A stretch of 64,000 nucleotides of DNA from Dryococelus australis (lineage: Eukaryota; Arthropoda; Insecta; Phasmatodea; Phasmatidae): the NCBI GenBank assembly GCA_029891345.1, contig CM057009.1:291100966-291164965 (forward strand), given 5' to 3'. The position numbers were made by a program, and so were the translations under genes. Of this stretch, positions 8,311-61,130 are shown one piece after another. The stretch's first letter is position 1. Every line of letters begins with the position of its first letter. Below the pieces are notes generated by a model. It was not told where the DNA came from and searched no databases. It saw only the letters and a list, made by a program, of their open reading frames with translations.

Positions 8311-8640
8311 CTAAAATAAGGTGATCTAATAAGCTTTTCCTCGCTAAAATAAGGTAATCTAATAAGCTTTTCCTCGCTAAAATAAGGTAATCTAATAAGC
8401 TTTTCCTCGCTAAAATAAGGTAATCTAATAAGCTTTTCCTCGCTAAAATAAGGTAATCTAATAAGCTTTTCCTCGCTAAAATAAGGTAATCTAATAAGCT
8501 TTTCCTCGCTAAAATAAGGTAATCTAATAAGCTTTTCCTCGCTAAAATAAGGTAATCTAATAAGCTTTTCCTCGCTAAAATAAGGTAATCTAATAAGCTT
8601 TTCCTCGCTAAAATAAGGTAATCTAATAAGCTTTTCCTCG
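8311..8640. repeat. Minisatellite, 10 x 33 bp, nearly perfect
   Basis: Ten head-to-tail units of exactly 33 bp fill 330 bp. Only the first unit differs visibly (GGTGATCT instead of GGTAATCT). Each unit contains AAGCTTTTCCTCGCT. Because 33 is a multiple of 3 and the unit lacks stops in two minus-strand frames, long frames of 135 and 156 codons appear, made of an 11-residue repeat (LARKSLLDYLI in one frame). The flanks are not conserved coding sequence, so I treat the frames as by-products. Confidence 0.95.
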
Positions 8641-10279
8641 CTAAAATGTAGACGGTAACGGGCCGAGTTTGCAATACATGGCATGTTTACCAAATCTGTG
8701 AGAATTTTTAAAAAGTAGATTTAAGATTTCGATATCAGTTACAAGTACTTACGAACTGGTTATGTATTTTTACAACTAGGCAAAATAAATATTACCTATT
8801 AAAATAAACGAAAATCTAGATCACATTATGCAATACAACGTTGCCACACAAACCGTCAGTAAATATTACTACTAATCATACATGCTGTGCATGATCCATG
8901 AAACAGTGGTGAGAATGTAGTTATGCCTTTCAACTATAGTACTTCGCTAATCACAGGCTTTAAATATTTCCCATTTTTACATCATTTCGTCCAAGTACGC
9001 CATAAAAACTTCTCATTTCGTGCCGGGTATATTTATAGCGAATATAAATGAATGGAGAGGAGATCACATAGAATAAAAGCAAAAAAAAAGAAGAAGCAAA
9101 ACTAAAAAAAAAAAAAAACAGCACAGCACAACCAAAAGCAAAACAAAAAATATTCTTTAATAAAAAATACAAACCCAGTATATTTTGCGACGGAAAGGTT
9201 TTTTTTTTTCAGGCATAAACAAAAAATCTTGTCCCAACAGCTTTACCATCAAAGTTTTTCGTTAAAAATAACCAAACGCTCACGATCATCCATTGCTGCC
9301 CGTAAAATGAAAACAAATTTTAAAAAATATATATATGTCCGGAGCACGGTTTGTATGCATCTCTGAAATCACTCATCAAAGAAACGCTACGGGCTACAAC
9401 TCGTTGTTTATTTTAGGTGTTAAAAATAAATTTTAATAAGACGAGTAAATATTAGCTAAGAGAGGCAAGAGGGAGAGTTGTTCTAAATAACTGACAGCAA
9501 GATAAAATATATTAGGTCGAGGAATTTTTCGACAGCAAATCTATGGTCACGGTTTATTTTATTAATTCGGCAAACACACCAGCGGCATAGCAACAATCAA
9601 AGCGAAAATACGATAATGTTAATGTCAGTTTTTTAAATGATGCGGGGACAAAAATCAGTGTTATGTCCGGCAAGCTTTGATTAATAACAAACCATTTCAT
9701 TAAAATGCAATGCGCCGTTGAAGACAAGAGATCGCCGTTGTTTTATATATAAAACACCTACATTATTTAAAATATACGTTCTTTTCGGGTAAGGAAACAA
9801 GGACACGTCATGATTACTTCGCCTACGTATAGTAATAATTGTGCTCACGAAAATAGACGTCAGAGCACGTATTGTTATGTTACGGTATTACATTACTTTT
9901 AAAAGTTATTTACAAACTCTCTAACAGTGTTGGCACAACTGAACCGCGATTTCCTTCTCTTAAAAAAAATAATAAAAAATCTCCATCAACCAAATCTCTA
10001 AACAGAAGTATTGATAAAGCACGATGGGTAAAGTTTATCTCCATTCAGCCATTGCAGTTTCCTCAAATTTGCTAACGGAAGAACCTAAATACGTAGTAAA
10101 TTTTCCAAATTTTAATGGCAGTTCTATATCTGCAGGCTGATTTGGGGTAAAATTTCCATGTATTATTTTCAATTTACTTTATAGTTCTTACGAAAGGCAG
10201 TAATTTGAACACTGGAAACCAAAATTACAAACTACAGCCTGAAGATCAGATACAGTGTTTTCCAAGTAAATCATGGAGA

Positions 10280-13470: not shown

Positions 13471-13559
13471 TAGTTGATTTTTACATATGCTGGGAGGACA
13501 CACAATTAGAAGGGAAAGCAGGTCCTAAACACGGATTTAAAAAGTAGGTAAGGTAGGTA

Positions 13560-13967
13560 AAGGCTGTTTATAATAAAGTGAGCAGTTTTGAAATCAACCT
13601 TCGAAAAAAGTCACTGCCCCTGCATATATTTTAAAGGGCGCACTAGGGGACACGCGCCTAGTTAAGTTAATAACGATGGATTCAAAGTAGTTCCATATCT
13701 TAACATCGAATGAAAATTGTTGGGTAACCATTTGTGATAATTTGAATTTATTTATTTTGCTTTCTGTTTTTTAATACACCGAAGTGTAAAACTGACCAGA
13801 TTGGAAATAGTTTATTTTCTAATAATTTCACAGGTTCACTTGGCCGACGTATGAACAAAGTGATGAGGCCATGTTAATTTCACATAAGGCGGAAGAATAG
13901 ACAACGTGCGTACAAGAAGAACTTAAGCAGGGCTTTCAAAACTGCTCACTTTACCGTGAACAGCCTG
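13560..13967. mobile_element. Tc1/mariner-type MITE, family B, copy 1
   Basis: About 408 bp. The left end AAGGCTGTTTATAATAAAGT is a diverged form of the TAGGCTGTTCACGG terminus; the right end is TTTACCGTGAACAGCCT. The interior keeps family motifs, including the 'gatggattcaaagtagttcc' region and the 'gaggccatgttaatttcac' region, shared with 41694 and 42840. The right target duplication is lost next to the adjoining SINE. Confidence 0.7.
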
Positions 13968-14256: not shown

Positions 14257-15550
14257 GTACCTACGGCGCAAGCAGCTTTGTTAAATTCAGCAGACGTCTG
14301 TCGCTTTATCTACGCAAGTGGCTTATGTAGTAATTGGTTTCCAACGAAGCCTTGCTACATACCTCTCAGGGAATCACAAATACAAGTTTTTTTTTTTTTT
14401 CGCACGTCTGTGTAAGAACCATTTGCGTGTAACTGCCAGTAACACAAACTGCTGTTACACTGGTGGATACTCAGTAAATAGAAGACATCTCTCTCAATCA
14501 TGACTTATTACAGCTTAGGCCTGTACATAATAGTAATGAATCCAGTTACCATGTTCATGTATAGTCATTAGCTCCTGTGAAAATTAAATTACGACTTTAA
14601 CGCAATTCGTATTTATCGCAAGGACTAGCATACGAACGCTTTCCATGTTTGCGCTCGAAATATCCACCAAACCAATTTAGGAAAAAAACCAAGTGCAACT
14701 GCAATGCTTTCTAATGAAACAGTTTCTCAGTAATTGTAACGCTTCTTCATTCTGTGAAACAGTAAGAATGCGGAAATGTAGTAACACAGCGAGGTTAAGA
14801 ACATTTTCTCTTTAAAAATGAAAAAAAAAAAAAGTTTTCCATTTGGTTATTTGCCTAAAATAGGGTTTTTTTTTTTTAATCTGCCGGAAGGAAGGCTTAG
14901 GGATTCTGATAGAAATTCGCCCTTATTTTCATTCAAGAGTTCTACGAAAAATTAAATATATAATATATAGTAGGCTAATATTAAGAATATTTATTGTTAA
15001 TAAAAAATATATAATATCAATTTCCCAAGTAACTGCTATGGAAAAACGCAGCGGTGATCTAAAAAACTGTATTTTAATTTTTTATTCTATCGAGTTTGCT
15101 ATTTAGAATATCGCTATTATTTTAACTATTTTAATACGGTTCTCTTTCACTAAAAAGCGTATAGCAAGCGATTAACTCTGATTATAGTTTATCAACACTA
15201 TAGACACACTACTCACAACATTAGTAAAGCCAAAGAAGAAACACTATTTTATACTTGGAACTTTATATCTTATATGGCAAAGGTTTTTTATTTATTCGGT
15301 AACCTAAATTAACACAATAAATTACTGAGCAAATAACCAAATATAGATTTTTTTTCAGTGTTGTGAGTGTTAACTTTCATAATTGCATGCAGCAGTAGTC
15401 TTAAAATCAAAGCAGACATATTTCATACAAAGTATATTAATAGCAAAGACAAGCACAACGAAAATGTAAATCTATTACTTCCATCACGTAACCTTATAAC
15501 ATTCCCAACGCTTGTCCCACGGCGACGTCAGAATTTCTTAGAAGAAGTTC
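14257..15550. other. AT-rich stretch, nothing recognised
   Basis: No supported feature beyond homopolymer runs. Confidence 0.5.
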
Positions 15551-15551
15551 A

Positions 15552-15986
15552 GGCATTTTCGGCATATAAGTTGCGAACTCTACAACAAAAGTAAAATTCG
15601 CTTGGGAACCAAGTTTTACAATCGGCCGTGTCCGTGAGGGTGTTTCGGTCAGCATGGGGTGCAGGCAGTTTCGGCATATAAGTTGCGAACTCTACAACAA
15701 GAGTAAAATTCGCTTGGGAACCAAGTTTTACAATCGGCCGTGTCCGTGAGGGTGTTTCGGTCAGCATGGGGTGCAGGCAGTTTCGGCATATAAGTTGCGA
15801 ACTCTACAACAAGAGTAAAATTCGCTTGGGAACCAAGTTTTACAATCGGCCGTGTCCGTGAGGGTGTTTCGGTCAGCATGGGGTGCAGGCAGTTTCGGCA
15901 TATAAGTTGCGAACTCTACAACAAGAGTAAAATTCGCTTGGGAACAAAGTTTTACAATCGGCCGTGTCCGTGAGGGTGTTTCGGTC
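15552..15986. repeat. Tandem array, 3.9 copies of a 112-bp unit
   Basis: The marker GGCATATAAGTTGCGAACTC recurs at 15561, 15673, 15785 and 15897, exactly 112 bp apart. The copies are nearly identical. The first carries a few changes (ACAACAAAAG for ACAACAAGAG), and the last has one change and stops after GTGTTTCGGTC. The unit contains AATCGGCCGTGTCCGTGAGG and is GC-richer than its flanks. Minus-strand frames through it repeat every 112 bp with frame change and are not a gene. Confidence 0.95.
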
Positions 15987-18944: not shown

Positions 18945-19659
18945 ATTTAACTCGTTTCAGTAGTATGATAAAGTGATGTCTGAGACAGGGTATTTTTAAT
19001 GGGAGCTGCATTGCTGTGTCTGTGGCTGGCGGTCTTCGGCTAGAATCGGTTGAGCTATGCAAACTTCGACTCGACTCAGCAGGTGCTCGGCATCTGTTGA
19101 CTTAGGATTGTCGAACGTACGTTAAGGTGCTCGGCAGTTACGCCCATTAATTATTCAAGCATATATGTCTGTTTCTGTTAGTCATATTGATTTTATAGGC
19201 ATGGGGTATGTAAAATTATAAATCTGTATTTATTATCCGATTATAAAAATAATTTTTAATTTTAAAATAATATTTTTATATATTTTGCCGAAAAAAATAC
19301 ATTTGCTATTAAGGAAACATGCCAAAGTCTCTAATAAAACTACTACATTTCCAGTCCCCTCTCTTGAAGACTGATTAATACATAATGCCAGAATCTGTAA
19401 ATTATTAACTGCCTCCATTGTTTTGTAGATATAAGTATGCTACTCAGATTTTTTTATATATGTATATTTGACTAAACCAAACCATCACACTAAGAGCGTT
19501 TCCATGCACGAATATGTTATAACAATGGTATGGATCAGAAACTACCATAATTTTATAGGCTTCATTAGCATTAATTTAAATGCCAATACTGCCAGGCACT
19601 GAAGACTTGGACTGTACGAGGGTGATACACAGTCTTAACTTTGGCGCTCTTCTTGAACA

Positions 19660-20345
19660 TCAATCCGTCAATCATCCAAACATTCCATCGATATTTGGAT
19701 CAATCCATTAATCTCCAATCTTTTCATCAATCTTTCACAATCTTCGCTAATCCGCAACCAATCCTCACCACTCCTTAGCAATCTTCCCATCAATCCTTCT
19801 AAATCTTTCCATCAATATTTCGCAATATTTCCATTAATCTTTCAATCTTCCCATCAATCTTTTCCTTCATTCAGCACCACATGCACCACAACTAGCACTG
19901 CATACACCCAATCAGCACAAAATGAGCTACAATCAGCACCATGCATAATACAATTAGCACCACATGCACCACAATCAGCACCACACACACCCCAGCACAC
20001 CAATCAGCACCACATACCAAATCAGCACAAAAATCAGCACCACATGCACTGAAATCACCACTACAATCAGTATCACGATCAGCCTCCCAATCTGGACTGC
20101 AATCTGCTCTACAATCTTCGCCAAAACCTCACCATTCTTTTAATATATCCATCAATCTTTCGCAATATTTCCATTAATAATTCGCAATATTTCCATCAAT
20201 ATCTCAATCCTACCATAAATCTTTCGCAATGTTTCCAATCAATCTATTACAATTTATCCTTCAATCTTTTGCAATATTTACATCAATCTTTCAACATCTT
20301 TCCATCAATATTTTGCAATATTTCTATCAATCATCAATCGATATT
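19660..20345. repeat. Degenerate minisatellite block in E2 left arm
   Basis: Two interleaved motifs: a TTTCCATCAATCTTTCGCAA type of about 20-25 bp on both sides, and a central CAATCAGCACCACATGCAC type of about 15-20 bp (19880-20060). The mirror block is 25195-25800. The arrays vary in copy order between arms, as expected of fast-evolving repeats. Confidence 0.85.
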
Positions 20346-20609
20346 CAAAACATGGGTTTGTCGTTTGTCTCTATACAAACAAAAAAAACAGTTCACCAGC
20401 TGTCTTATTTGTACATGTCGATAGAATTAATGTTTGTTATGCAGTCAACTATTCTTTAATTTTTGTACATAAAGTCTTTTATAACATCCTAGGTACTGAT
20501 CTTTTCATTAAAAGTTGAGTGCTCATAACACCACTTTAAAGTTGTGAAGGATAAAAGGATACAACAAAACAAATTAAGAAAGAAACAATTTTTTTGTAAT
20601 AATAATTTA

Positions 20610-21285
20610 TTATTGTTTTGTAATTACAATTTCAGAACAGAGTAGTTCATCACCTAATTCATATTACCCCGTTCCTTCAGTTCATTAATGGTTGAAGATA
20701 TTTAAACAATGTGTGAGAGATACCATCGTTTTTCAAGGTCAATCAAATATCTGAGTATATTAACAAGTTCATTTGGGTATTCGGGAAAAAGGTAGCCAGT
20801 ATCCTCGGCGTCTTCTGCCTTCTTCATGTCGCTTGTTGTAGAAAATGTGTTGAAGGGGTGTGTCAGTGAATCGAGAAAAAGTAATTGCCTTCATCAACAC
20901 TGTCGCCAAGATCATTATCAACAATGCTATCGTCGCGATCATCTTCACCTCCTGTTTCATCCTCAATATCAAGTTTACTTTTCTTTGTAGGAGTCACATT
21001 GTCATCTGCAGTATTTAAAGCTAACGACCATTTTTTTTTCAAGTTCATCGACTTCACGCGACAGTCTTCATTCCACACAAAACAACTCCACAGCACTCAT
21101 TTAGTCTGTAGCACTAACTGTCTCGTCACAATCGCCTATGCAATCAGTATCCACCGTCGAGGAGCACTTTGACAGTAGGTAAGAACTCTATCGCAGAATC
21201 TACATAGTCGGCAATCGGGCAGCGATAATGCAGGTCGCAGCTCAATGATCGATGAGGTCAAAGGTAGGCCTTCGTACCTACAATT
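20610..21285 (-). pseudogene. Zinc-finger/acidic protein gene relic, E2 left arm
   Basis: On the minus strand from about 21285: the finger start RLCRFCDR with its CxxC pair, then a deletion that removes the rest of the two fingers found in the right-arm copy. A Cys-Asp-Glu-Thr-Val-Ser motif and a stop follow, then a frame with KKSKLDIEDETGGEDD and more acidic residues (about 20863-21000), and a remnant of the C-terminal segment (PNELVNILRYLID-like) with several stops. The same order occurs on the plus strand at 24105-24931. Differences in stops and indels between the two arms show independent decay. A DNA-binding role is inferred only from the fingers; an acidic domain could be an activation or protein-contact region. 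Confidence 0.65.
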
Positions 21286-22345
21286 CATCTTCACTTAATA
21301 GCAAGGTAATGCTTTCAAATCGATGTTAACGTCTCGACGTCTGAACATCAACTAAGGTATCAGTGTACGTCAGTACCCTATATATACTTTCTCCCATCAC
21401 TCGGAAAACCCACCAGTTTTTTTCTAAGACTGAGAGGAAATTAATATTCTTTATGGTTTCGGGCTTCGCACTCAGGGTCCTAAGAGATGCATTACCTTCG
21501 CAAATTGCTTAAAACTTTTGTATCAGTTATGCATGAATATTAAACAGTGAAAACTAATAGTACGTACATCGCTAAAAATAACTTTAAAAAAATCGGATTT
21601 TAATTGAATTGCGAATCTCTGTTCTTACCCTGATCCCCATATCCAATAGCTAAAATCATCGTTTCGTCTCTAAAAGTTTTCAAAGTCGAAAATGAATTAA
21701 TAAAATTTTTTTATTGTTCAGGGTCTTAAACTCAGGTCCCTACACCATACCTCACCTTTGGAGATGGTTTAAATTCTTTTATCAGGTGCGCACGAATACT
21801 AATCAGTAAGAAATTAACGTACGAACATCGCTACACAAAGGCTTCAAAGCTCAGGATGTCAACCGATTTGGGGGCCCATTATCTCACTCTGATTCCTATA
21901 TCCAATAGTTAAAACTTCCATTTCATCTTTCATATAAATTCACATAATATTCACCGGCCACTGGGAAAAATTATAACTTTTTTTTCTAAGTCCCATAGAA
22001 GATAAATATTTTTTATAATTTCGGGTCTCGAACAAAGGTCACTACACCATACTTCAAATTTTGAGCTTGCATAAATCTTTATGCCAGGTATGTTCATAAA
22101 ATAATTTAAAGAGACAGAAAATCATGTACAATGCTCGTTATAAATTATCCAAAACTCGGGTCGGTTTTCGAACTGGGGACATTTCATCTCGGTATATCAT
22201 CTTTATTCTTCATTCCAACCTTCTTCTCACAACCTACATTATAAGTTTCATACACCATGTACTTATACGGCATTTAATCCAGCAATTTTTGTTAAACTGT
22301 CACTTAGGTGATTCTTGGACGTAGACTAGTAGAATGACATGGTGA

Positions 22346-23009
22346 GTTTGGGACAAGGAGGCTCGATTGCGACCTATGTTTGAAGTTTGATCTCAAACAT
22401 TTAACTTCACATTGACCATATTTGGATGTCTTCTGTACCAAAGAAACGCGTAAAAGGGGGGAATTTATTTAATAAATAGCGAAATTAATTCAATATAAAT
22501 CAATTTCGTAGTTTTTGTCAGCTAAGTAGGTTAGGGGGTGGGTGGTCGTTCGACTTAAAGCTGATAGGCAGAAGACGGTATGAACGAATGTGAGGTATTA
22601 GTCAATGATAATCATTAGTGGGAGCTGAAGCCTGCCAACTAATTGGTAGAGCGAGCAGAAGTAATTGGGAAATTAAATATAATGGAAGGGGGGATTGGTG
22701 GGGGTCAGTCGTCTGCTGGATGTTGTGCTGGTGGGACCTCTGGAAATGTGAGTTTTTTAAATACAATTTTTAATAATACTTTTTATGATAAATTGTGGAT
22801 ATTTTAAAATTATATTTATAATTTTTTAAATAAATTTGTTATAAATTTTTGGGATATTTTAGAATTTTATTGGAGTTTTCAAGGTCAAGGTTAAAAATTA
22901 AGGGCGTGGTCACTGACATCCAACATGGCGGACAATATGGCCGCCGGAGGACCAGAATGACAGAACATGAACAGCTCCGATGCTCCGCTCCCCTATCCCA
23001 TTGGCCAAT
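22346..23009. other. E2 loop with terminal-signature block
   Basis: This unpaired centre holds TCAAGGTCA at 22879, followed at 22922 by AACATGGCGG and then a palindromic-looking ATATGGCCGCC. The part at 22620-22760 (GGTGGGACCTCTGGAAAT, a C/G-rich run, AATTGGTAG) resembles, inverted, the outer part of E3 near 58975-59070. The loop therefore carries on one side only the block that lies at the outer end in E3, a real difference in arrangement. Confidence 0.6.
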
Positions 23010-24104
23010 AACATTCATAATCATTCTACTAGTCTACATGCAAGAACCATCCAAGCGACAATTCTGTAAAAAATGCTGGAATAAATCCTGTATATTGTGT
23101 ATTAAACTTATAATATAGGTAGTTAGACAAATTTTGGATAATTAATAGAGATGATATAGTGAGATAAAGGGTTCACAGTTCGAATACCAACACGAGTATT
23201 GGATCATTTTTAACGAACATTGTACATGATTTTCTGTGAGTTATTGTGCTTAAACATACCTAATATATAGATTTACGGAATGTTAAAAGTTGAGGAGTCG
23301 TATAGGGGCCAGAGTTCAAAACCCGAAAATATAAAAAATAAAATTTTCCATTGGACTTAGAAAAAAATATGGTAATTTTCCCCAGTGTTCTGTTAATATT
23401 ATAGGAATTTATATTAAAGGCGAAATGGAAGTTTTAGCCATCGGATATAGGAATCGGAGTAAGATAATAGGATAGAAAAACGACTGATGACCTGACTTTT
23501 TGGAGTCTTTTTTTCTAGCGATGTTTCGTACATTCATTTCTTACTGTTTAAAATTAATGGGCACCAGATATAAGGATTTAAGCCATCTCCAAAGGCGAGG
23601 TACGGCGTAGGGACCTGAGTTTAAGACACTAAACTATAAAAAGAATTATTCATTCACTTTCTGACTTAGAAAAATTTATTAGAGCCGGTATTAGGAAATC
23701 ATAATAATGGTGAAATGAAATGATAGTTTTAGCTATCGAATATGGGGATCAGGGTAAGATAAGAGGTTCGCAATTTTATTAAAGACCCGAGTTTTTGAAG
23801 CCTTTTTAGCGATGTTCGTATATTATTTTTCCCTGTTTAATAATAATGTGTAACTGATACACAAGTGTCAAGCAATTTGCGAAGGAAACGCATGGCTTAG
23901 GGCCCTGAGTTCGAAGTCCAAAAAGATAAAGAATGTTAATAATCTCTCAGTCGTAAAAGAAACTGGCGGGTTTTCCGAGTGATGGGAGGAAGTACATGTA
24001 GAATGCTGACGCACACCGATAACTTAGTTGATGTTCAGACGTCGAGAAGTTAACATCGATTTGGAAGAATTCTCTTGCTATACAGTCAAGACTATTAATA
24101 CGAA

Positions 24105-24931
24105 GGCCTGCCTTTGACCTCGTCGAACATGGAGCTGAGACCTACATCATCGCTGCCTGATTGCCGACAATGTCGATTCTGCGATCGAGTTTTTACCTTC
24201 GGTCAAAATGCTCGTTGACATGAAAAAATCGCCTGTACAAAGAGTCCTTTCCCACGAGGAAGGATTACGACAACAGCCATATAAATTTATTCCAATATGA
24301 TACATTGAAGAACCACATCAAAAACTGTACCGATTCGTCTTTTAAAAGCCAGCAAGTGATGACGTACATACTCTCTGTTACATCGGTGGACACTGATTCC
24401 TCAGATGATTGTGACGAGACAGTTAGTGCCAAGGACTGAATGAGTGCAGTAGAGTCGGTTTGTGTGAATGTACACTTGCAAGACTTTCATGTAAAATCGT
24501 TGAAATTCAAATAAATAGTCGTTGACTTTAAACACTGAAAATGACCATGAGACTTCCACAAAGAGAAGTAAACTTGATATTGAGGGTGAAACAGGAGGTG
24601 AAGATGATCATGAAGATAGCATTGATCATAATGACTATGACGACAGTGTTGATGAAGGCGATGACGATTTTCTCGATGCAATGGCACACCCTTCCAAGAC
24701 ATTTGCTGCAACAATATACACGAAGAAGACAGAAAACTCCGAGAATACTGGCTATTTCCCGAAAACCCGAATGAACTTGTTGGTATACTCAGATATTTGA
24801 TTGACCATATAAAAAGTTCGGATCTCTCACGCATTGTTGAAATATCTTCAACTAATAGTAAACTGAAGGAATGGAGATATATCGCATTATGTGATGAACT
24901 GCTTTGTTCTGAATTTGTAATTATAAAATAA
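24105..24931 (+). pseudogene. Zinc-finger/acidic protein gene relic, E2 right arm (best preserved)
   Basis: Reading in order: RQCRFCDRVFTFGQ with the CxxC pair of finger one, a stop where an arginine would be expected, then HEKIAC giving the His and last Cys. About 35 codons later, in a shifted frame, comes a second finger-like half, YDTLKNHIKNC. Next is a Ser/Asp-rich stretch with DETVSAKD, then KLDIEGETGGEDDHEDSID and further acidic residues (24570-24660). The C-terminal segment reads PNELVGILRYLIDH and later SSTNSKLKEW, to a stop at 24929-24931. At least two frame changes and three stops break it. I do not recognise the family. The last segment faintly recalls a short helical tail I associate with Polinton-like or virus-like insect proteins, but this is weak. 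Confidence 0.65.
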
Positions 24932-25194
24932 TGGTAAATTAGTATTAAAAATTAACAGTTTTCCTGTATTTTGGTGTTTCGTATTATTTTATCCCTCACA
25001 TATTTAATGTGGTGCTGTGAGCTCTCGATTATTAATGAAAAGAACTCCATACAGATTTATAATAATTACTCTATATACAAAAGTGCATGAATAGTTTTTG
25101 CATACAAGTCATTAATTCTGTCCACTTGTACAACTTTTGGATACAGATCGTGAATCGTTTTTTATATGTATGAATAGAGACCAATGACAAACAC

Positions 25195-25800
25195 ATGTAT
25201 TGAATATCGATTGATGAGTGATGGAAATATCGGGAACGATTGATGGAAGGATTGTGGAAGATTGATTAGATAATTTATAAATTAATGGGAATATTGAATG
25301 AGTGCTGGAAATATTGTGAAACATTTATGTGGAAAGATAGCAAAAGATTTATGGGAAGATTGAAAGATTGATGGAAAGATTGAAAGTTTGGTGAGGATTG
25401 GCGAAGATTGTGGTGCTGATTGTGTTGCATGTGGTGCTTATTGCAGTGTTGATTGTGGTGCTGATTGCAGTGCATGTGGTGCTGGTTGTGGTGTGTGTGG
25501 TGCTGATTGTGGTGCATGTGGTATTGATTGTGGTGCTGATTGATAGAAATATTGCGAAAGTTTGATGAAAAGATTGATGAAAAGATCGTGAGAGATTGAT
25601 TATATGATTAAAAGATTAATTGAATAATTGAAAGATTAATGGAAAGACTGCGAAATACTGGTATAAAGATTGCAAAAGATTTATGGAATTTGCTGAGTAT
25701 TGGTGGGGACTGGTTGTGGATTGGTTAAGATTGAGAAAAATTTCTGGAAAGATTGGAAGTTTAATGGATTGATCCGATGGAATGATTGGAAGATTAATGG
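25195..25800. repeat. Degenerate minisatellite block in E2 right arm
   Basis: Mirror of 19660-20345: GATTGATGGAAAGATTG-type motifs flank a central GTGGTGCTGATTGTGGTGCA-type array at 25405-25545. The open frames across it, rich in His and Asn or in Ser, are repeat artefacts. Confidence 0.85.
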
Positions 25801-26525
25801 ACACGAAGAGCACGAGAATTAAGACAGTTTATCATACTTGTACATTCCAATTCTACAGGGCCTGGCAGTTTTGGCATTTAAAATAATGCCAATTGAGCTT
25901 ATAAATGTGTTGTTAAATGCTGATCCATACTATAAATGTAACATATTCACGAATGTGGTCGCTGTTAGTATGATGGGCTAGATTTAGTCAAATCAACATA
26001 CATTAAAAAAATCTGAGTAGCATGTTGTACCTACAAAACACTCGAAGCATTGAATAATTAGTCGATTCTGGCATTATATACTGTTAATCAATATTCAAGA
26101 GAGGGTGCTAGAAATTTGGTAATCTAATGAGAGACTTTTGCATGTTTCCATAATACCCTATGAATATTTTCGGCACAGTATATAAAAAATAAATCATTTT
26201 TTAATTTAAAATAATTGTTAAAATTTGCTTACAAATACCGATTTATATTTGGCATATCCTATGCCTATAAAATCAATATGGTTACCATAAACAGACATGT
26301 ATACTTGAATAATTTATGGGTGTAACTACCGAGAACCTTTCAGTACATTTGACATTCCTAAGTCGACAGATTCCGAGAGCCCGCTGAGTCGAGCCGATGA
26401 GTGCCGAGCTCGTCCAAGTCGATCCGAAGATCGCCAGCCACCACCACAGCCACAGAAACACAGCTCCCGTATAAAACGCATTGTCCCAGAATTCCCTTTT
26501 TCACAATACTCGTTTTATTATTAGA

Positions 26526-27748: not shown

Positions 27749-27785
27749 TTATCGAGCCGTTTTATGCATCACTGAAAAAGAAATG

Positions 27786-27968
27786 CTTTGTGGCTGCTAC
27801 AAAGTATTTAGTTGCTATACACACAACCTAATTATTTCGTGGTAGACACATGATTTTATAGTTTGCCCCACGAAACATGTGTGGCGTCTAGATATTTATA
27901 TTTTGTGTTCACCAGAAAATTATTTCGATGTGTGTACACGAACAAAGAATTTTGTAGCAGCCACGACG
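27786..27968. repeat. Palindromic repeat, possible MITE
   Basis: CTTTGTGGCTGCTACAAAGT at the left pairs with ATTTTGTAGCAGCCACGACG at the right. Further in, ACACACAACCTAATTATTTCG pairs with a diverged complement. The arms are near 60 bp. A TTCTACAAAG/TCGTGGCAGC phrase at 48150-48175 looks related. Confidence 0.6.
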
Positions 27969-27975
27969 TATTTTT

Positions 27976-30900
27976 TTCAGCGTTCTCTTATTTTTGGTTA
28001 AACTGTACTTCAACTCATATTATATCTATAAATCGCAATAATTCATTTATAATTAATACGAATCAAAACAGATCGTATAAATATTTGTGTTGGTAATTTC
28101 TAGGAGGAGGTAGCTACAGTGAAAAATATTATTTAACTGGGTGTCCACGAATCCAGTGCGTTTTCCTTTTCGTGTAATTTTCTACACTCAGTTAAGATTT
28201 ATTTGCGTGAGGCGGAGGAATAGTCTGAAAATAGAACTTCAGCAGGACTTCATTAAAGTTTGAAGTTACCATGAATATGATTTAGTTTATCCTTTTATCT
28301 ATGGACCTAGTAACTAACTGCATGATTCTATGAAGCTTGACCGCGAAATGTTTACGAATGTAAAATGTTACATTTACGCAAATCCTTGCTCAAAAGTGCG
28401 TAAAACAAAATAAATCGGTTTCAAGTTCATTAAAACACGCAACTACTTTTAACAATTTACTGACTACATTTCTAGGAGAACTATTTATCAGTGTTTGCTA
28501 TGTAATGTGTACAGATTGGACTGGCTGAGACTACTTTTCAAATGTTTTCAAAAACTTAGTGTCAGACTTTGTGTGCCTTCCTGCAAGTTTGTATATCTGA
28601 ATAGCTTCTTTCTACATATTTGTGTATCTTTATGAATAATAAGTACTGATAAAAGTGTTTTGATGACTGAAAAATACATTTAGTTTAGTATTGTTGTCGG
28701 AGGAGCCGCCTACACATTTAAAACAATTTGCATTTATCTAGGTAGTAATTACTTACATTTATAATTTGGATAAGTCCACCATGTGAGCCTTTAAATGTGA
28801 ATAATTAAAATAACGTGAACTTCAGTAGTTTTGCATAAAGGATCGGCAAAATTGTTCGATTTTTATGTATCTACAAATAACTTACGCTGGTGAGAATACA
28901 GGTTTATGTACAAGGAGCTCATTGCAATCGTGAAGTTTTCCATAAAATCACAAACCTTTTAACATCTCTGGAGAGTCATTACAAGTCTACGGGCAGTAGA
29001 AGTCTGTTCCGGGAACATTTACGTATGTCGATGATCTCATTTTTACGTAAACTTAACCAGCGTATGCTTATATCTTCCCCTTATTCCCTCCATATTTTCC
29101 CTCTTGAATGAGTGGGTGCTGCTGATTAAAATTTTTTTAGACCACTTTTAAACCCACGGGTTGCAAGAAATTGTTTCAAACATTTCAAACGCAAAATTGG
29201 CGAGATCGAAATGTTTGCTCATAGTACGTCACTGACAGCCCGAAAAGTTACAACAACCAGTTCACTGAATTGTTTATTTAAACTACTAAGCTTCCAGTTA
29301 ACAACTGAATGAGCGGCATGGTTTGAAAATAACCTCGCTAGATCACTTTCGCAAATTTGTCTAATAAAGAAGTGCCCTTGCTGAATTCAGTCTCGTGCGG
29401 CAAACCATCGTATGCCACTACGGCAATGAAACGTGTTTTTTGATAGCAGTAAATGTTATAAATTGTTGCAATGGATATAAGGGAACAGTGTTTCACTGCC
29501 CTAATATCTGTATTTTTACTACACAGATAGCAGTTAGTAAATATTCAGAGGAACTTACAGAAGGAATTTCCCTTCTCTATTTCACGTTTCTCGCTTATTG
29601 GCGCTCTAGATGACACGCTTTTAACCAACGGGGTAGCAAAAATATCAGTGCGATTATTTCAAACAAGTCGGCAATTGCGTGTTATTCAAGTTAGAAACGA
29701 ACTAATGGTATGAATTTATGCATGGCAAAAGTATGCACTGATATTCGTTATCGCGTTTGTCGTATAAATGTTTAATGGAAGTTGTAGAGTAATATATCAA
29801 AAACGTGTGCGATTTCTAGCATCCCTACTTAACGTCATGCAGGAAGACAGAGAAAATACTATTACGCGTGTGAAAGTATGCTAAGGGTGAATTATTCCAG
29901 TGCGTAATTAAACTCGGTGCATACTTTAGAAGAGATAACATAGTTTTACTAACTGCGGTATTTGCAGTGCTAAGGGGACGAACGTACTTTATATGCAAAT
30001 GGGTACTTATATACACATGTTGCCAACTGAGAACAGTAATACGAAAGTGTTCACACGGTTTAAAAAAAAAAGATACCATTTGTGAACTTGAGCCAAGGAA
30101 AAAAGTTAATTCAGAGGATTTCCTCCGCTTGCTGCGTACAAATGACCTCGGGAAAGCGGGGTAACATCCAATCCTCAAAGCGCACGTAGCAATTTCGCGA
30201 GAGAATTCGCGTGCATTTGCCATTTGCGCTGTATCCACCCTCGTAAACAAACGGCACTTCCATAGTCTGCAACTCAAGTGACGTTTACTAGCGAGAAGAT
30301 TATGTAGATTGCTTAAGCCCGAGAGCTTAACTACTTTCCCTCCTTCTCGACCATCATTACACCTACCTTGTTGCTGTGACGTAATTCGCCATTCCAATAA
30401 GATGACACGTAGAAAATGTATTGCGAACATCAGTATCTGCGAAAATAAACTCGGGGTCATCGTCCAGCATATCTTCAAGTTGGTCGTGAGGACACACGGC
30501 CAATTAAAGTTGCCAACCTGAGAATAAAAAAATGTTTACATTTTCAAAATTGCTCGTTTGATTAGTTGTAAAATCATGCGGCTGAGTTAAACACAACATA
30601 CTAAAGGTCATCTCTGCTTGAAAGTAACCTATAGCATAGATATAAAAATAGTTTCTACAGATAATTAAAAAACTATCAACATCGTCAAAATTTCAAAAGT
30701 ATTTTTTTACATAGCGGCGAAGCATAAACGGGCTGAATATCATTTATACATGTATGGATAATGCGGTCACAATTTCCTTACAAAAAATAAGGTGTATTAT
30801 ATGTAAATATGTTTTATACAGTCAAACCTAACGGCGAGGGTATGCCTTCAAAAGGAGATCTGGAATTTTGAAGATAGCTTTATTTGCAAATATTACCGTA

Positions 30901-35866: not shown

Positions 35867-36442
35867 CTGATCCGCATCTACGAGCTTTAGCAAGATGACA
35901 GACGCTTACACCTTAAAAACATATATAGTTGTTTGTGAAAAACCAGGGGTTTCGTAAAGTGTAGTTAAGTACAAAAATAAATGTATTGCAAGTTTGAATA
36001 ACGTAAAACACTTAGAACAACTCATATAATAATAATAACACTAACAATAATAATAACACAACTGCAATTTTAAAAAAACACGTGACGGTATTATTCATTA
36101 ACTGTTAATGTTTTAAATCTACACAGATCTCTTAAAATGAAATAAATGCGTTCTTCTTAACCAAATATATTCACTAATATTTTGTAGGCATTTACTGCAA
36201 TATTTACAAAAAAGTAATTACGTAACTCGCAAGTTAGTCAACGTGCTGGCAAGGTGTACCTTTTTCTGTGGATAATATTTTGAAATTTTTTTTCTCTCTA
36301 TTCTGTTATTAATTCATTACATTTGGTTGCTAGAAAAAAATAATATTTTGTCCACTTTTCAATAATATAAGTAGTAATACAAACCTATCATTTATAATAT
36401 TACAATTATATGTTTTGTTTATTTTACAAGAAAGCTGTTTGT
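35867..36442 (+). repeat. Dispersed repeat F, copy 1
   Basis: About 575 bp that is also present, direct and near full length, at 47580-48152. It starts with a GATCCGCATCTACGAGC phrase and contains GTTTGTGAAAAACCAGGGGT, TTTGAATAACGTAAAACACT, ACACGTGACGGTATTA and CTTTACTAATATTTTGTAGG-like text; it ends CAAGAAAGCTGTTTGTAG. No open frame. It could be a long MITE or a non-autonomous element; the ends are not inverted repeats that I can see. Confidence 0.8.
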
Positions 36443-36702
36443 AGAACTTTTAAGATGTAGTCGAACAGCCGTAATAAACGTTACTACCAATTAATATGAT
36501 TGTATAAATTTTTATTTAGTGTATAAAATCTTGGCGCGAATAGTCAAGAGCCTTACGCAAGATATGGGCTTACTATGCTTACGCAAATGAGGTATACGTT
36601 CTACATTGCGCCAAGCTTTTATATGCTAGATATAAATTGATACAAATTTATTAATTTTTAGTAAAGTTTATTTTGGCTCTTCGACCACATCCTACAAGTT
36701 CT
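36443..36702. mobile_element. MITE with 28-bp terminal inverted repeats, inserted at the end of repeat F
   Basis: The left end AGAACTTTTAAGATGTAGTC pairs with the complement of GACCACATCCTACAAGTTCT at the right, and the match extends to GAACAGCC/GGCTCTTC. It is 260 bp, AT-rich and non-coding. It sits exactly where repeat F copy 1 leaves the alignment with copy 2. Confidence 0.75.
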
Positions 36703-37265
36703 ATAAATTTTGTAACTACAATAATTGTTTTTCTTTTTTTAGTACATTTATAAATAAAAACTTGGTTTTAAAAGTTTCTTACAGTTATTTTATTTTTCAC
36801 TTTTTAGTTTCACCAAATTGTTTGCTAATTTATTATGTAGCAATGTACAGTACATCTCGCGACAAACTTTATATCTGTTAATGTGCGTTGCTACATAATT
36901 GCTACAGATCCGGGTCACCATCTACAACCAAATTACTCATTGAGACAAGTCAAACGAGGCCAAACTCGATACCTTCACTATTTGAGGAAAAAGATTAATT
37001 TGAATCAGCATTTCCAAGACATCGAAGTTTCTCGTACACTTTCGCCAACATACTAAAACATTTATGCGAAATGCATTAGTTACGTAATATGGAAAACCAG
37101 CATTAATACGCTAGATAACGACGCAACTCGACTCTGTGTGTGCACGTGCGCGCGAGCACAGCTGATCGGACGCACAAAGTCACGCTGCCTGTTCGAGGCA
37201 GGCTTTTGCCACCCACACGAGGGCGACAGTCAAAGACAGGGAAGTCTGGCAACATTGATGTAGCA
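36703..37265. other. AT-rich stretch, nothing recognised
   Basis: No supported feature. Confidence 0.5.
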
Positions 37266-41618: not shown

Positions 41619-41693
41619 GTAAGTCCGCAGCGGCCCTAGCCAACCTGCTTTCGCCAAGGAATTGGAAATATATGTATATATATAATCTAACTA

Positions 41694-42104
41694 TAGGCTG
41701 TTCACGGTAACATGAGCACTTTTGAAAGCCCTCCTCGAGATCTACTTGTAAGCACGTTGTTTATTCTTCCACCTAACATATAATTAAAGTTGCCATAGGC
41801 CTTATCACTTTATTCATACGTCGGTCAAGTGAAAATTCAAAATTATTACAAAAATTAATATGTAGCTAATATTCTCATTTTTACACTTAGATGCATTAAA
41901 ATAAAAAAAACAACGAAAGGAATAACTTAATGGTTACGTGACACTTTTCGTTCGACATTAAGATATGGAACTACTTTCCATTCATCGTTACCAACTTTAC
42001 TGGGCGCATATCACTCAGTTCGCCCGTTGAATAAATGCAGGTATGGGCAGTAACATTTTTCTAAGGTTGATTTTAAAAGTGCTCACTTTATCGTGAACAG
42101 CCTT
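41694..42104. mobile_element. Tc1/mariner-type MITE, family B, copy 2 (in intron)
   Basis: 411 bp with ends TAGGCTGTTCACGGTAACAT and, in complement, AAAGGCTGTTCACGATAAAG, flanked by TA on both sides (41692 and 42105). It shares its length and interior (ACTTGTAAGCACGTTGT, GATATGGAACTACTTTCC, CAACTTTACTGGGCGCAT) with the copy at 54005. It starts 75 bp after the FN3 exon's donor. Confidence 0.85.
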
Positions 42105-42509
42105 TAGTAGTAGTTTAATGCCACAATATAGGCATAGTATAATCAACAATATAATAGAATGTTGATAAAATGACCCTCGAGCTGCTAGGGGAGTCAGGGT
42201 GGAATGCAGAAAAACCGCGCCATTCTCACCTTCCAGGCAACTTGGTGTACATAGTTGTAATGTTATATTAAAATGTAATCCATAAAGGCTGTAATGGGAA
42301 AATAAAATATAAAATAAAAGAAAAAACACATGAAAAATGAACATCCTATACCCAGTATTAGCCAGGAAGGGCACAGGTACGAGGGTGATAAGAAAAATGC
42401 ATGACCGGCCTTTGGCTGGCCCCGTTATAAAAAGAAAGGCTATTCGCATTTATTTGAGCACTTCTGAAATATGCTTTAAAAGAACCACTGCCCGTAACTA
42501 CATTTACGC
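42105..42509. other. Intronic stretch, nothing recognised
   Basis: A 144-codon minus-strand frame covers part of this interval but also overlaps the MITE and has no recognisable domain; treated as chance. Confidence 0.45.
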
Positions 42510-52985: not shown

Positions 52986-54004
52986 ACGTTCGCTACTTCT
53001 ACCACCTGCGGAAGATATTGTCTCATTCACGGTGGAATTGTTAATCGAAATCGCCTAGTACTAACCATCTAAATCCCGAAATATTATCCTTGCAATTTTT
53101 TAAGGTGATACCGTTTCCACTGCTGCCTTTAAATAAATATCTAACAATATTAAAATTTTACTATACTGTTATTTGTTCTCCTTTAATTTACGAACAGAAT
53201 TAAACTTTAATAACTTCAGATATTGAATAAAACTGCCGGAAACAAAAGCGATTCCTCTTTTCAGATAGTGAAATGTGAAGTGCGGCGTATTTAATATATT
53301 TCTTTTGCCAGAGAGATGAAATAATTTGGTCTAACCCCAAAAATTTATTGGGTTAATTCGTGTGTTGGAAAGCTTGAATAGTTCCTTAACACGATATTGT
53401 TAAAATTTCGAAATAAAAGTACCACTTTCAAAGGAGACGCTCGTGGTACACCCAGTGCTTAGTGCCGACATTGTTAACCTGAGATTTTAGTATGAGGCGG
53501 AAGTATTACTTTGAACAGAAAAAATCAGTAATATTTTCATTTATGTTATCGCCTTTTCTTTAACTATGTGATTGCTCCTCATATTTCGTGTTCGGAAACA
53601 ATGTACGGAGTAGTGATAGAAATTTTGGCAGAGATTAATTTGTGCCATTTAAATTGTAATTTTAAAATAAAATGTAATTTTTGAATTCGTGACTTATGAA
53701 TTTTTTTCCCACATAAAAGAGGTTAATATCGTGTAATACTAGCATTTTTATACTTATAACTTTTGCGGCTAACTTCTGCGGGTGCATCACTAGACTGATG
53801 CATAACAACTGGTCGATATATCAGTAGCAATGATAATATTTGCGTATAGCCAGTTGATACTCATAAGGTGGTATTACTTATGAAACGTTTACCTAATGAA
53901 AATTACATTTGTATAATTCCTTACAAATTCTACGTTGGAATGTACAGTATTTCGCTCTAAACATAGAATGTTGCGGTAAAGGTCCCAATTGAACGGCGCC
54001 ACTA
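52986..54004. other. AT-rich stretch, nothing recognised
   Basis: No supported feature. Confidence 0.5.
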
Positions 54005-54425
54005 TAGGCTGTTCACGGTAAAATGAGCACTTTTGAAAGTCCTTCTTAAGATCTACTTGTACGCACGTTGTGTATTCCTACGCCTTATCTAAAATTAACA
54101 TTGCCATGGGCCTCATCGTTTAATTCAAACGTCGGTCAGGCAAAACTGTGGAATTATTGATTAGTAAATGTGTTACAAATCTGTTAATTTTTACACTTCG
54201 ATGCGTTAAAAGACGGGAAGCGAAAGAAAAAAATTAAGTTATCACAAATGGTTACCCTCACACTTTTTATTCGACGTTAAGATATGGAACTATTTACCCT
54301 CCAAGGTTACCAACTTTACTGGGTGCATGTCACTCATTGCGCCCGTTGAAATGTATGCAGGTAAGAGCAGTGACTTTTTTTTTTAGGTTGATTTCAAAAG
54401 TGCTCACTTTATCGTGAACAGCCTA
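54005..54425. mobile_element. Tc1/mariner-type MITE, family B, copy 3 (most intact)
   Basis: 421 bp with ends TAGGCTGTTCACGGTAAAAT and, in complement, TAGGCTGTTCACGATAAAGT, flanked by TA (54003 and 54426). The repeats extend for about 34 bp (to CACTTTTGAAA). It is non-coding. It pairs closely with the copy at 41694. Confidence 0.9.
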
Positions 54426-55220
54426 TAGTATGGAATACGCTAGAAAAGTGTTGTTTGATTCTCATCCTGTTTTTTTCACCTTTGACAACAAACGGAAGCC
54501 CATGTCAATCAGGGGAAAGTGTTCGGGTATTACTTTTGTTTGTACCAAGCTAAGACTTAAAACTGGAATTATCGAGCTGGTTGTGTATTTCACCCTTGCC
54601 AAATTGTATCACTGCAGTGTATGGCCGTGATAACAATTCCGAAAAAGTATTGAAGCGATCACGCATATTTTTTCCTGGTGATATTTTGAAAGCCTTCCTC
54701 TCACGTCTCAACTCTTCTAACTTGTATTCTCACTTCACATGCGTTAAAATTGTTATAAATTGTATATTTTGAATTTTATAATTATCTCTGATTAAATTGC
54801 CAAAGTGCACCAACATAATGCTCTGTTTAGGCTATATAGATATAACTTGGCCAATTTTTCAGAACTAAATTTGGTCAGAATAATTTGTAATTATCTTACG
54901 ATATTAGTATACTCTATTCACGGTTACTTCCCACTTTTCTGAAGCCCTGCTAAAGTTCGACTTTCAGAATATTCCTCCGCCTCGTGCAAATAAAGCCTAA
55001 ATAAGCCTAGAAAATTACACCAAAGGGACGACCCGCGGAATTCGTGTGCACTCTTTTTAAAAAAAATTTTTTGCATGAGCACTATTACTTAATAATCATT
55101 AACAAATCTCTTATTTTCTTTCTGGTTTTATTCACATTAGTTATAAATGAAATATTATAATTTATAGATAATAAATGTGTAAAAATATTTTATTCTACAG
55201 TATGTTAGCAGAAGTGTTAA
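54426..55220. other. No recognised feature
   Basis: Contains a stretch at 54930-55010 that is the complement of the phrase at 28203-28258; otherwise nothing recognised. Confidence 0.45.
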
Positions 55221-58554: not shown

Positions 58555-58870
58555 GCCGTTATGTTGTGACGTCACCCGACCGCCATGTCAGGTACCAGAT
58601 GACCTTGACCTTGATTCTGTATCCGTGACCTTGAATGAACTTAAAACCCAAAAATGCAGAAAAATTATCAAATAAAAAACTTTAAAATAAAAACATGTTT
58701 AAATTTATTCATTAAGGATGCAAATATAGATGGTCTGGGGTTCAATGACAGATGGATCGCCTAAACACCCGACATGGCCGGCTTTCGCCAGGTCGACCAG
58801 TGTCCATCTTGTCAGCTATGTCAAATGTCGGTGACCTTGATATTTGACCTTGATTTTGGATGACTTTAAA
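58555..58870 (-). repeat. E3 terminal signature blocks (TCAAGGTCA and ATGGCGG)
   Basis: On the minus strand TCAAGGTCA occurs five times (plus-strand positions 58600, 58606, 58626, 58832, 58845), the first two overlapping as a direct repeat. ACATGGCGG lies at 58580-58588 next to GGGTGACGTCACAACAT, the same order as in E1 (2190-2210). A second, diverged block with ACATGGCC lies near 58780. The spacing and order of the motifs, not only their presence, are shared. Confidence 0.7.
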
Positions 58871-59536
58871 GTCAAAAAAAATTTCAAACTCCCAAAAATT
58901 TCGTATAAACCAAAAAAATTATTTTTAAATCTATTAAAGGTTTTTTTTTATAAAACTTATATTAAGAACTTATATATTCAGAGGTCCCTCCACAACCACC
59001 ATTAACAATTTTTTATTGGTTGTTTAATCGATAAATTACTGCCTTCGCAAATAAGTCGGTAGGCATCCACCCCCCTCACGTATAATCATTTCATCGCATG
59101 CAAATATCTTCTTATTTTCGTTTGTCATTTGTTTTCTTTTTCAACAACTAGCTGATGTCATAGTCAAGATTCTCCCACCAGGCGAGCTGGTTATACAGCC
59201 ACCAGGTGGGGGCCGTATTTGTCTAAGGGTGTAAAGTAAAGGTGGTGCTGTCAGCATCCTCTATATTGGATTCTATTTTCAACACGTATGGGGAGTTAAT
59301 TTATCGATTTAAACACCAGACGAGTCTCCGATTCAGCCGCCAGGCAAGATGTTGACATTCAATTTTTAGGCATAGGAAAATCTTTAATTTTCATCCCTTT
59401 AAAAAATTATTTTTCCAATAAGCAGTATAATTAAATAGATCATGCGCGACTTTGACTACCTGCATAATTTTTTAAATCTATATTTTCTATTAAACACGTT
59501 AAGTTGTTCAACTATAAATAGTATTTTATATTTAGA

Positions 59537-59755
59537 CTAGCGGACCCGACAGACGTTGTCCTGTACATATGTCTTAAATCTCTCCCCCTCTCTCTCCCCC
59601 TCTCTCTCCCCCTCTCTTCACCTAATTGTGAATCTAAACCATTCTCGAATCCACTTGAACACACACAAAAAATTTCATCAAAATCGGTCCAGCCGTTTAG
59701 GAGAAGTTCAGTGTCATACACACGCACAGAAGAATTATATATATATAAAGATATA
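59537..59755 (+). mobile_element. Non-LTR retrotransposon 3' end (RTE-like) or derived SINE
   Basis: It starts near ACTAGCGGACCCGACAGACG, contains a CTCTCTCCCC microsatellite (59580-59616), then TTTCATCAAAATCGGTCCAG and CCGTTTAGGAGAAGTTCAG, and ends in an AT-repeat tail. I know this ending as a common insect RTE-type 3' region. The equivalent site in the E3 right arm (about 63420-63560) lacks it. Confidence 0.6.
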
Positions 59756-59990
59756 TAATCCTACATATAGTACAATCTTACTTTATGCAATACTTCTAAT
59801 TAAATTTATATTGTTACTGTGCATTTAAAATTTTACTTTATATGGAAAAATTAGGTAAATATTAAATAAAACACAAGTTTATTCTCAGGCATTTTTCCAT
59901 TCAATTAATTTAATACAGGCGTTTATGTTCTCGAAAAATATTACAATATTCTTCGATTGATATGCGTCTCAATATATACAACTATGTTGT
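59756..59990. other. E3 left arm, AT-rich segment
   Basis: Matches, inverted, the region about 63120-63400 of the right arm (for example TATAATCCTACATATAGTA with its complement near 63350). No coding sequence. Confidence 0.6.
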
Positions 59991-60015
59991 ATGTTACAGT
60001 CTTTTATCCATCTTG

Positions 60016-60885
60016 CTATTCGCACTTGTGTTGTCCTTGTGCGAAAATATCGTAACATTTATTACACTGACACACTGAGCAGGGCATGTTATATAGGTAA
60101 CTACACTTTTGAGGACATGTACCGAAGTCACAAGAGACCTGCTTGCAGCAAACCTGGTAGCGAGGTTCTGATGAGAAATGCACTTCGCCTTTACAGGTCT
60201 TTGTATGTCTAAGTAAATGGTCGATACGGCTGATCTGATAACCGCACCTGTAACATAAATATGATATGAGTAGAGACCTGAAAAATTCGCGAGTTCAATG
60301 ACCTGCAGGCTAGACTTCACAGTCTTATGTAAAAGTATGCAGATATCAACTTCACATTGCTTGTCTGCTGTCACAGTGGAAGACGACAGGAGGTATCAAA
60401 CACTGTGAGAACCAATGGCTATGCTTATATAAACACACGTTTTCTTTTTAATTCTAGCTTATCCCAAAATGAATTCGCGAATTCTTCATGTCTCTAGACA
60501 TGAGGCAGGGATTCTTGGCACAATGAAAGCGTTCATGGCGCCGTACACCGTAGCCTAAAGCAAATGTCTTATCACATAAGTGACACTGATTACGACGTAC
60601 CTGTTGAAGATGTTGGTGCTGGATTTAAAGAAGCAGGTAAGGCCGGCAAATGGTGTTCTAATTACCTCAGCCGAAAATATCGATAGTTCCATTGAAGATT
60701 CCGTAGGCGTCACAGTTGAAGAATTCAATGGTACTGTAACATCTGTAGATGATCGTGTTCCACTGGTGACAGTATATGTTGGCAGTGATGTAGGTGTCAC
60801 AGCTGACGAAGTCGATGGCGCTATACCAATCTGAAAATAAGGTACTCCTCTGATGGAAGTAGATGGTGCTAGTAATGTAGACATT
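60016..60885 (-). pseudogene. Zinc-finger gene relic, E3 left arm, split by a MITE
   Basis: Minus strand. A Ser/Thr/Pro-rich N-terminal part with repeats such as STSSAVTPTSLP and NSSTVTPTESSMELSI runs from about 60884 to 60660. Then, in another frame, comes finger one (CHLCDKTF, later RRHERFHC; near 60595-60510). A 226-bp MITE interrupts the gene. Beyond it finger two reads YLCYRCGYQISRIDHLLRH and ends TKTC. A Cys-rich tail then has six or more further Cys residues in CxC and CxxC pairs (YQVCCKQVSCDFGTC and others), to a TAG at 60016. Finger spacing fits C2HC. One frame change besides the MITE. The tail is read open to the stop. Confidence 0.7.
60271..60496. mobile_element. hAT-type MITE, copy 3, inside the zinc-finger gene
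   Basis: 226 bp with ends TAGAGACCTGAAAAATTCGC and, in complement, TAGAGACATGAAGAATTCGC. Flanking 8-mers are GATATGAG (60263-60270) and GACATGAG (60497-60504), 7 of 8. The right arm has a single uninterrupted site at about 62857-62870, confirming insertion after the arms formed. Confidence 0.9.
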
Positions 60886-61130
60886 ACAGTTGAATAAATC
60901 TATGGTGCTGTAAAAACAGGAGACATCTCATTCGAAAAATAATTCGATGGCGAGAAACCATTGGAGGGCAATATCTGCTCCACTTTAACGTAACTAGCAA
61001 TGGATTACCTAGCGTAGAAGCTAGCCGAAACGATTCACCTTTCACATTAGCTGTTGTAAAACTAAGCCTCTCAGATGACACGCCACTGCTTATAATATAC
61101 GTGTATTCAAGTCCTATGACGTCATATTAA

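Follow-up and report, generated by a model that had tools for sequence, protein, structure and literature searches.

A palindromic element of Dryococelus australis with foldback anatomy and Polinton-type ends

Introduction

Elements of the Polinton/Maverick family encode PolB and a retroviral-type integrase (PMC6431247), and in an account of vertebrate Mavericks the commonest end motif is 5'-(AGT)2//(ACT)2-3', found together with 6-bp duplications (PMC8097293). Foldback elements, Tetris among them, are described as having very long inverted arms, tandem sub-repeats, a variable middle and no transposase, the target duplication of Tetris being 8-10 bp (PMC4079207). In a group of Mutator-like elements with multiple terminal inverted repeats (TIRs), described from plants, terminal-type sequence is repeated internally and the extra TIRs are mostly tandem (PMC3310237). 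Here we describe E2, a 7.55-kb inverted repeat at positions 18959-26510 of a 64-kb stretch of the Dryococelus australis genome (hereafter the window, to which positions refer unless a contig or locus is named), and compare it with these systems.

The E2 family shares with Polintons/Mavericks a 6-bp duplication and (AGT)2//(ACT)2 ends, and an E2-type zinc-finger module sits in P1, a PolB element of the same genome. It differs from them in that E2 has no detected PolB or integrase, consists almost entirely of inverted repeat and carries a gene within each arm. Like foldback elements, E2 has long inverted arms, tandem sub-repeats and a middle domain, whereas its 6-bp duplication, the gene remains in each arm and the Polinton-type ends set it apart. 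The internal repetition of terminal-type sequence recalls the multiple-TIR Mutator-like elements, except that E2 has one short motif per arm/loop junction, about 3.4 kb inward. Most foldback elements have been placed with transposons of the Mutator or P type. Palindromes also occur among linear DNA viruses with protein-primed replication, such as adenovirus, whose symmetrical defective genomes arise when one end is copied onto the other; E2 differs from these in being an inherited family dispersed through the genome. Miniature inverted-repeat transposable elements (MITEs) are short elements with short TIRs, and E2, at 7.55 kb with 3.4-kb arms, lies beyond that size; an original prediction from the sequence had noted that the arms are far longer than MITE TIRs. 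No Polinton-type foldback with a gene in each arm was found among the titles and abstract openings searched, subscription papers lying outside that search.

Results

E2 is a full-length palindrome inserted as a single unit

The two arms of E2 (Table 1) are inverted copies with 74-77% identity along their entire length, and they enclose a loop of 683 bp, or 703 bp if the terminal-type motifs (22328 and 23030) are taken as its limits. In a self-BLAST, 18959-21156 aligns inverted to 26510-24384 (74.1% over 2241 columns, E = 0) and 21156-22337 to 24219-23021 (77.0% over 1220 columns, E = 0), and the mafft alignment of the arms spans their full length, including the gene, the minisatellite and the outer ends. 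From the inside outward, each arm comprises about three diverged tandem units of ~260 bp, a zinc-finger fragment, an acidic segment, a third coding-like segment, a minisatellite block and an outer end of ~0.7 kb; a stretch of ~163 bp in the right arm (24220-24383) is absent from the left arm. Ungapped blocks reach 82-86% identity in the zinc-finger/acidic region and 80% in the outer block, so that the pairing extends beyond low-complexity sequence. The original prediction of arms of ~3.4 kb that pair over their whole length is borne out by both comparisons, and its coordinates were accurate to ~15 bp, with a loop put at ~660 bp.

An empty-site query was composed of the 200 bases to the left and the 200 bases to the right of E2, with a single copy of CGTTTC kept between them, and was searched against the genome (3.415 Gb, 646 contigs). 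Forty of 973 candidate places were scored, two of them being E2's own flanks. The join is crossed uninterrupted in all 38 others, at 75-80% identity, with a difference between genome span and query span of -18 to +10 bp and no insertion at the join. E2 thus entered a copy of an older interspersed repeat in a single piece, and it is one mobile element.

In agreement with the duplications anticipated near 18.95 and 26.5 kb, E2 is flanked by CGTTTC (18953-18958) and CGTTTT (26511-26516), which agree in five of six bases, compared with at most three of six at ten shifted registers. Target duplication could be tested in the three units of the family that have both ends, namely E2 (5/6), U09 (2/6) and U20, where it is perfect (6/6; CACCAC/AGTAGT ... 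ACTACT/CACCAC). At 6 bp, the duplication in the family is of the Polinton/Maverick rather than the 8-10-bp Tetris size.

Whole units recur elsewhere in the genome

First-look searches gave 3098 candidates with the loop as query and 8931 with the gene region, of which 40 were scored in each case. Among the stretches retrieved, two complete palindromes, U09 (on C1) and U20 (on C9), share the outer ends and the loop of E2, the loops matching that of E2 over their full length at 74% and 68% identity, respectively. The locus had been proposed to be a foldback-like mobile unit with gene copies facing outward; such units do recur as wholes, and with a target duplication. More distant arrangements were also found. 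L032 is a palindrome having E2's gene and different ends, and L036 combines an E2-type arm with an arm just 58-63% like the others (trimmed alignment), its outermost ~210 bp pairing at 87%. In U18 and U11, a full arm is accompanied by part of a second arm and by an additional stretch; that of U18 (~3.5 kb), tested as an element core, contains no Pfam family above cut-off and does not match that of U11. A single arm or a portion of one is present at U10, U19, L035, L037 and L039, with the loop retained beside the arm in U10 (loop, then arm) and in U19 (arm, then loop); considered as smaller elements with two ends of their own, neither of these two showed a target duplication. L038 has an E2-type end only, and PolB was not recognisable by eye among its listed open reading frames (ORFs). 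Among 41 listed gene-region places (of 43, two secondary ones having been removed), there are four neighbouring pairs, E2's own included, all of them divergent.

Because the units were oriented by their loop, sides A and B are comparable across units. We built trees of 13 arms and then of 12, the second without L036_B. Both trees recover the same sister pairs, E2_A with E2_B (support 100), U09_A with U09_B (100) and U20_A with U20_B (95-96), so these hold with or without L036_B. Same-side arms of different units are 74.0% identical (36 pairs), compared with 73.2% for opposite-side arms (38 pairs). Since partner arms are sisters and same-side arms are hardly closer than opposite-side ones, the tree supports the view that the two arms of a unit, E2 included, were alike at insertion and would have diverged later. 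The loop that the units have in common shows that they trace to one palindromic ancestor. The K80 distance between the E2 arms is 0.25 over 2760 sites, or ~0.125 per arm since insertion, which makes E2 an old copy.

The outer ends carry a Polinton-type motif

The 3.4-kb arms of E2 are terminal inverted repeats, as found in Polintons/Mavericks. Of 15 outer ends examined, 7 have the end motif AGTAGTATGA exactly and 10 have it with at most one mismatch, compared with 0.24% and 0.74% of random 60-bp boxes; we count the family as having (AGT)2//(ACT)2 termini. The pattern AGTAGWATGA, picked after the ends had been seen, occurs three times in the window, once where the left arm begins (18959) and once at each arm/loop junction (22328 and 23021), a number that none of 100 shuffles reaches. 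Among the junctions of the other units, 4 of 11 carry the motif exactly, and 6 of 11 do so when one mismatch is allowed.

E2-type zinc fingers are linked to those of a PolB element

The family PF03175 (DNA_pol_B_2) is abundant in this genome, with 6287 candidates and at least 54 matches, all over cut-off, and is found in none of 14 control genomes. Pox_A32, an ATPase family typical of Polintons, has at least 41 matches here and also matches in 2 of the 14 controls. One PolB-bearing element, P1 (C1:151.72-151.74 Mb; PF03175, E = 2.7e-21), has inverted repeats of ~2.7 kb. Its PolB frame (L030 5206-7113, minus strand) also encodes, ahead of the polymerase, an endonuclease VII domain that scores 26.4 bits against a cut-off of 23.6 (PF02945). 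Upstream of the PolB frames and on their strand lies an ORF with C2H2-type zinc fingers, whose zf-C2H2 match (E = 0.0012) does not reach the curated cut-off. The other end of P1 carries a homologue of the inner repeats and first zinc finger of E2, facing outward. The ends of P1 differ, with an outward zinc finger plus PolB at one and an outward E2-type zinc-finger module at the other.

Linkage between the two zinc-finger types was measured with the P1 end module as query, using 40 scored places (of 60, after removal of 20 secondary ones) and 150 matches to the zinc-finger ORF on the PolB side of P1. A match to this ORF lies within 20 kb of the module at 8 of the 40 places (7 of 39 without P1). 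The eight pairs are 5.5-12.8 kb apart and all divergent, with 0.07 pairs expected and none at 20-100 kb. The E2-type module and the PolB-side ORF are thus linked. A profile of the E2-family fingers, run against 6958 peptides, matches the P1 module (E = 3.6e-6). The loop of L036 contains a PolB-like fragment (tblastn, E = 3.5e-6). As a separate observation on distribution, 53 of the 150 listed matches to the PolB-side ORF lie, by hand count, on C17, the contig of the window, which makes up ~9.6% of the assembly.

The genes in the arms are broken

The gene is broken in both E2 arms, and both copies face outward. In the right-arm copy, a stop interrupts the finger and the reading frame changes from one segment to another; the left-arm copy lacks ~163 bp past the finger and has further stops and frame changes. 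Of the original proposal of an outward-facing gene copy in each arm, the orientation stands, but the gene is dead on both sides. No PolB is present in the outward-strand frames of the arms, nor is there any Pfam integrase match in these frames, no genome-wide integrase search having been made. Between units, the zinc-finger region is somewhat less divergent than control stretches.

Table 1. Coordinates of the features of E2 in the window
Feature	Position	Strand	Remarks and basis
Left target-site duplication CGTTTC	18953..18958		5/6 bases shared with 26511-26516; joined-flank search
Left arm (arm A)	18959..22337	gene remains -, outward	begins AGTAGTATGA; self-BLAST, alignment
Minisatellite block, left arm	19657..20340		repeat search
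Acidic segment, left arm	20880..21056 (approximate ends)	-	alignment
Zinc-finger fragment, left arm	21139..21294	-	cut off by ~163-bp gap
Diverged ~260-bp tandem units, inner left arm	21420..22190		21420-21885 vs 21677-22190
Inner terminal-type motif AGTAGAATGA, arm A/loop junction	22328..22337	+	AGTAGWATGA pattern match
Loop	22338..23020		full length kept in U09 (74%) and U20 (68%); genome matches
Inner terminal-type motif AGTAGAATGA, arm B/loop junction	23021..23030	-	AGTAGWATGA pattern match
Right arm (arm B)	23021..26510	gene remains +, outward	ends AATACT; self-BLAST, alignment
Diverged ~260-bp tandem units, inner right arm	23258..23961		23258-23674 vs 23563-23961
Zinc-finger fragment, right arm	24099..24215	+	ends at stop within finger; profile match
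Acidic ORF, right arm	24519..24800	+	ORF
Third coding-like segment, right arm	24665..24931	+	left-arm counterpart ~20640-20830
Minisatellite block, right arm	25197..25760		repeat search
Right target-site duplication CGTTTT	26511..26516		comparison with 18953-18958

Relatives of E2 and other repeats in the window

Two further palindromes lie at the edges of the window. E1 is the right part of one of them, occupying positions 1-2277 and cut by the window start (the whole is C17:291095731-291103242, L025 1732-9243); it contains a zinc finger homologous to that of E2, ~117-bp repeats with AAGGTCA motifs and a right end reading ...ACTACT. E3 occupies 58832-64000 and runs ~86 bp beyond the window (L024 898-6152), with zinc-finger remains in each arm. 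The plan of E3 had originally been regarded as independent of that of E2. This did not hold up, as the E2-family finger profile matches E3 (best E = 1.5e-6) as well as E1 (best E = 4.7e-15), and the palindrome plan is therefore common to E1, E2 and E3 by descent. E3 further carries, at its outer ends, a module similar both to the right half of the loop in E2 and to the outer end in E1. This right half of the E2 loop (22663-23000) is a ~340-bp repeat in its own right, arm-free at many of the listed places matched by the loop; in L015 and L023 a zinc-finger stretch similar to the one in the PolB element is found a few kilobases away.

The window also contains a ~420-bp repeat family (13558-13966, 41690-42109 and 54001-54430), the last copy being MITE-like, with 38-bp terminal inverted repeats at 95% identity. 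Short self-inverted palindromes of 69-73% identity are found at 36438-36707 and 27772-27980, and nearly uniform tandem arrays, both at 99%, at 8311-8647 (33-bp unit, 10.2 copies) and 15550-15986 (112-bp unit, 3.9 copies).

Discussion

By strict criteria E2 falls outside the Polintons and looks instead like a non-autonomous derivative of one, with foldback anatomy. The account that we favour, and consider rather likely, is that E2 is an old, non-autonomous, foldback-like Polinton derivative whose zinc-finger end had been copied to the opposite end as well. Polinton-like elements of D. australis that bear PolB are the probable source of its lineage. On this account, the zinc-finger end, comprising inner repeats, gene, minisatellite and terminus, would have come to be present at both ends, giving the palindrome, and the likely route would be copying of one end onto the other between the terminal inverted repeats during replication. 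E2 would then have integrated with a 6-bp target duplication in the Polinton/Maverick manner, presumably moved in trans by integrase and PolB that full elements supplied. Binding to element DNA is the probable role of the zinc-finger protein, which is similar to the front part of the PolB gene. The inner AGTAGAATGA motifs may be relics of an earlier terminus, beyond which newer sequence was added.

A more far-reaching version, which we put forward tentatively as a possibility, is that these elements are self-perpetuating symmetrical defective Polintons. End copying in protein-primed replication would have converted a virus-like element whose two ends differed into a palindrome bearing one and the same outward zinc-finger gene at each end, the arms would be re-equalised in each replication cycle, and AGTAGAATGA, 3.4 kb inside the ends, would mark an older, shorter terminus.

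Several observations weigh against a Polinton derivation by end copying. With regard to the ends, the motif is inexact at 8 of 15 outer ends, E2's right end among these, and the longer form of the motif, at up to three mismatches, is no commoner than chance in the window (2 found, 1.54 expected). Neither U09 nor the related palindrome E1 has a target duplication (2/6 in each). No PolB-bearing element was found to have AGTAGT ends of the E2 type, and AGTAGT is absent where the putative ends of P1 were sought, its exact ends and duplication not being fixed. With regard to the link with PolB, the polymerase is confirmed in P1 only, the other seven places being known as coordinates alone. A PF03175 partner is present at 1 of 40 module places, which is P1 itself (47 of 54 PF03175 matches used), and a Pox_A32 partner likewise at 1 of 40, which is not P1; none of the 150 P1-type zinc-finger ORF matches lies near Pox_A32. 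The E2-family finger profile matches the PolB-side ORF of P1 weakly (E = 0.0015 among the 6958 peptides). In the arms, no Pfam family exceeds its cut-off in the frames of the outward strand, in a scan that did not extend to the other strand or to 22450-22899 of the loop, and the codon-position sign of selection on a protein is absent in the 12 arms tested (L036_B excluded). Finally, when raw identity is compared segment by segment, the partner arm is surpassed by some arm of another unit in 8 of 12 unit-segments, though it exceeds the mean of the other units in 11 of 12. Arms decay to different extents, which the tree accommodates and raw identity does not.

Four other explanations were weighed. 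E2 might be an ordinary foldback of the Mutator or P lineage, moved by an unseen cut-and-paste transposase, with Polinton-like ends by coincidence. Its foldback anatomy fits this, and no transposase was seen in E2 itself. The duplication is nevertheless 6 bp, against the 8-10 bp of Tetris, the ends are of the (AGT)2 type, and the E2-type zinc-finger module is linked to the zinc-finger ORF of the PolB element; we therefore regard this origin as unlikely.

A second alternative dispenses with end copying. A Polinton-like lineage might always have had long TIRs bearing the gene, and its core could have been lost by internal deletion, in keeping with the variable loops and with the PolB-like fragment in the loop of L036. 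Simple deletion would not, however, yield the same gene at both ends, because the ends of P1 carry different genes; the two zinc-finger types stand divergently at 8 of 40 places, and terminal-type motifs occur at the inner junctions. We consider this explanation similarly unlikely.

The remaining two, together with a local inversion, are excluded by the empty site and the recurring whole units. Two opposite insertions of single arms, for which one-armed copies such as U10 and U19 could be cited, or a local inverted duplication after insertion, are refuted by the single empty site that covers both flanks, and the same loop with both ends recurs in U09 and U20, leaving them a very slight chance. 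That selection maintains a palindromic pair of host zinc-finger genes, as two outward copies and a somewhat less divergent finger region might suggest, can practically be dismissed given the thousands of candidate places (8931 with the gene region, 11239 in another search), the target duplication and the empty site, which refutes it, the frames broken in both arms and the missing codon-position signal.

A foldback lineage tied to Polintons/Mavericks would, if true, extend the foldback architecture to self-synthesising, virus-like elements. As the divergence between the arms of each copy dates its insertion, the lineage would also record how the ends of such elements recombine. In D. australis, repeats make up 63.29% of the genome, 1.56 Gb of these being unclassified, and the words 'Maverick' and 'Polinton' never occur in the main text of the genome paper (PMC10268593). 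Since a single 64-kb window contains three palindromes, whole or in part, the superfamily is a candidate for part of this unclassified fraction, and the zinc-finger frames of its palindromes could be misannotated as host genes.

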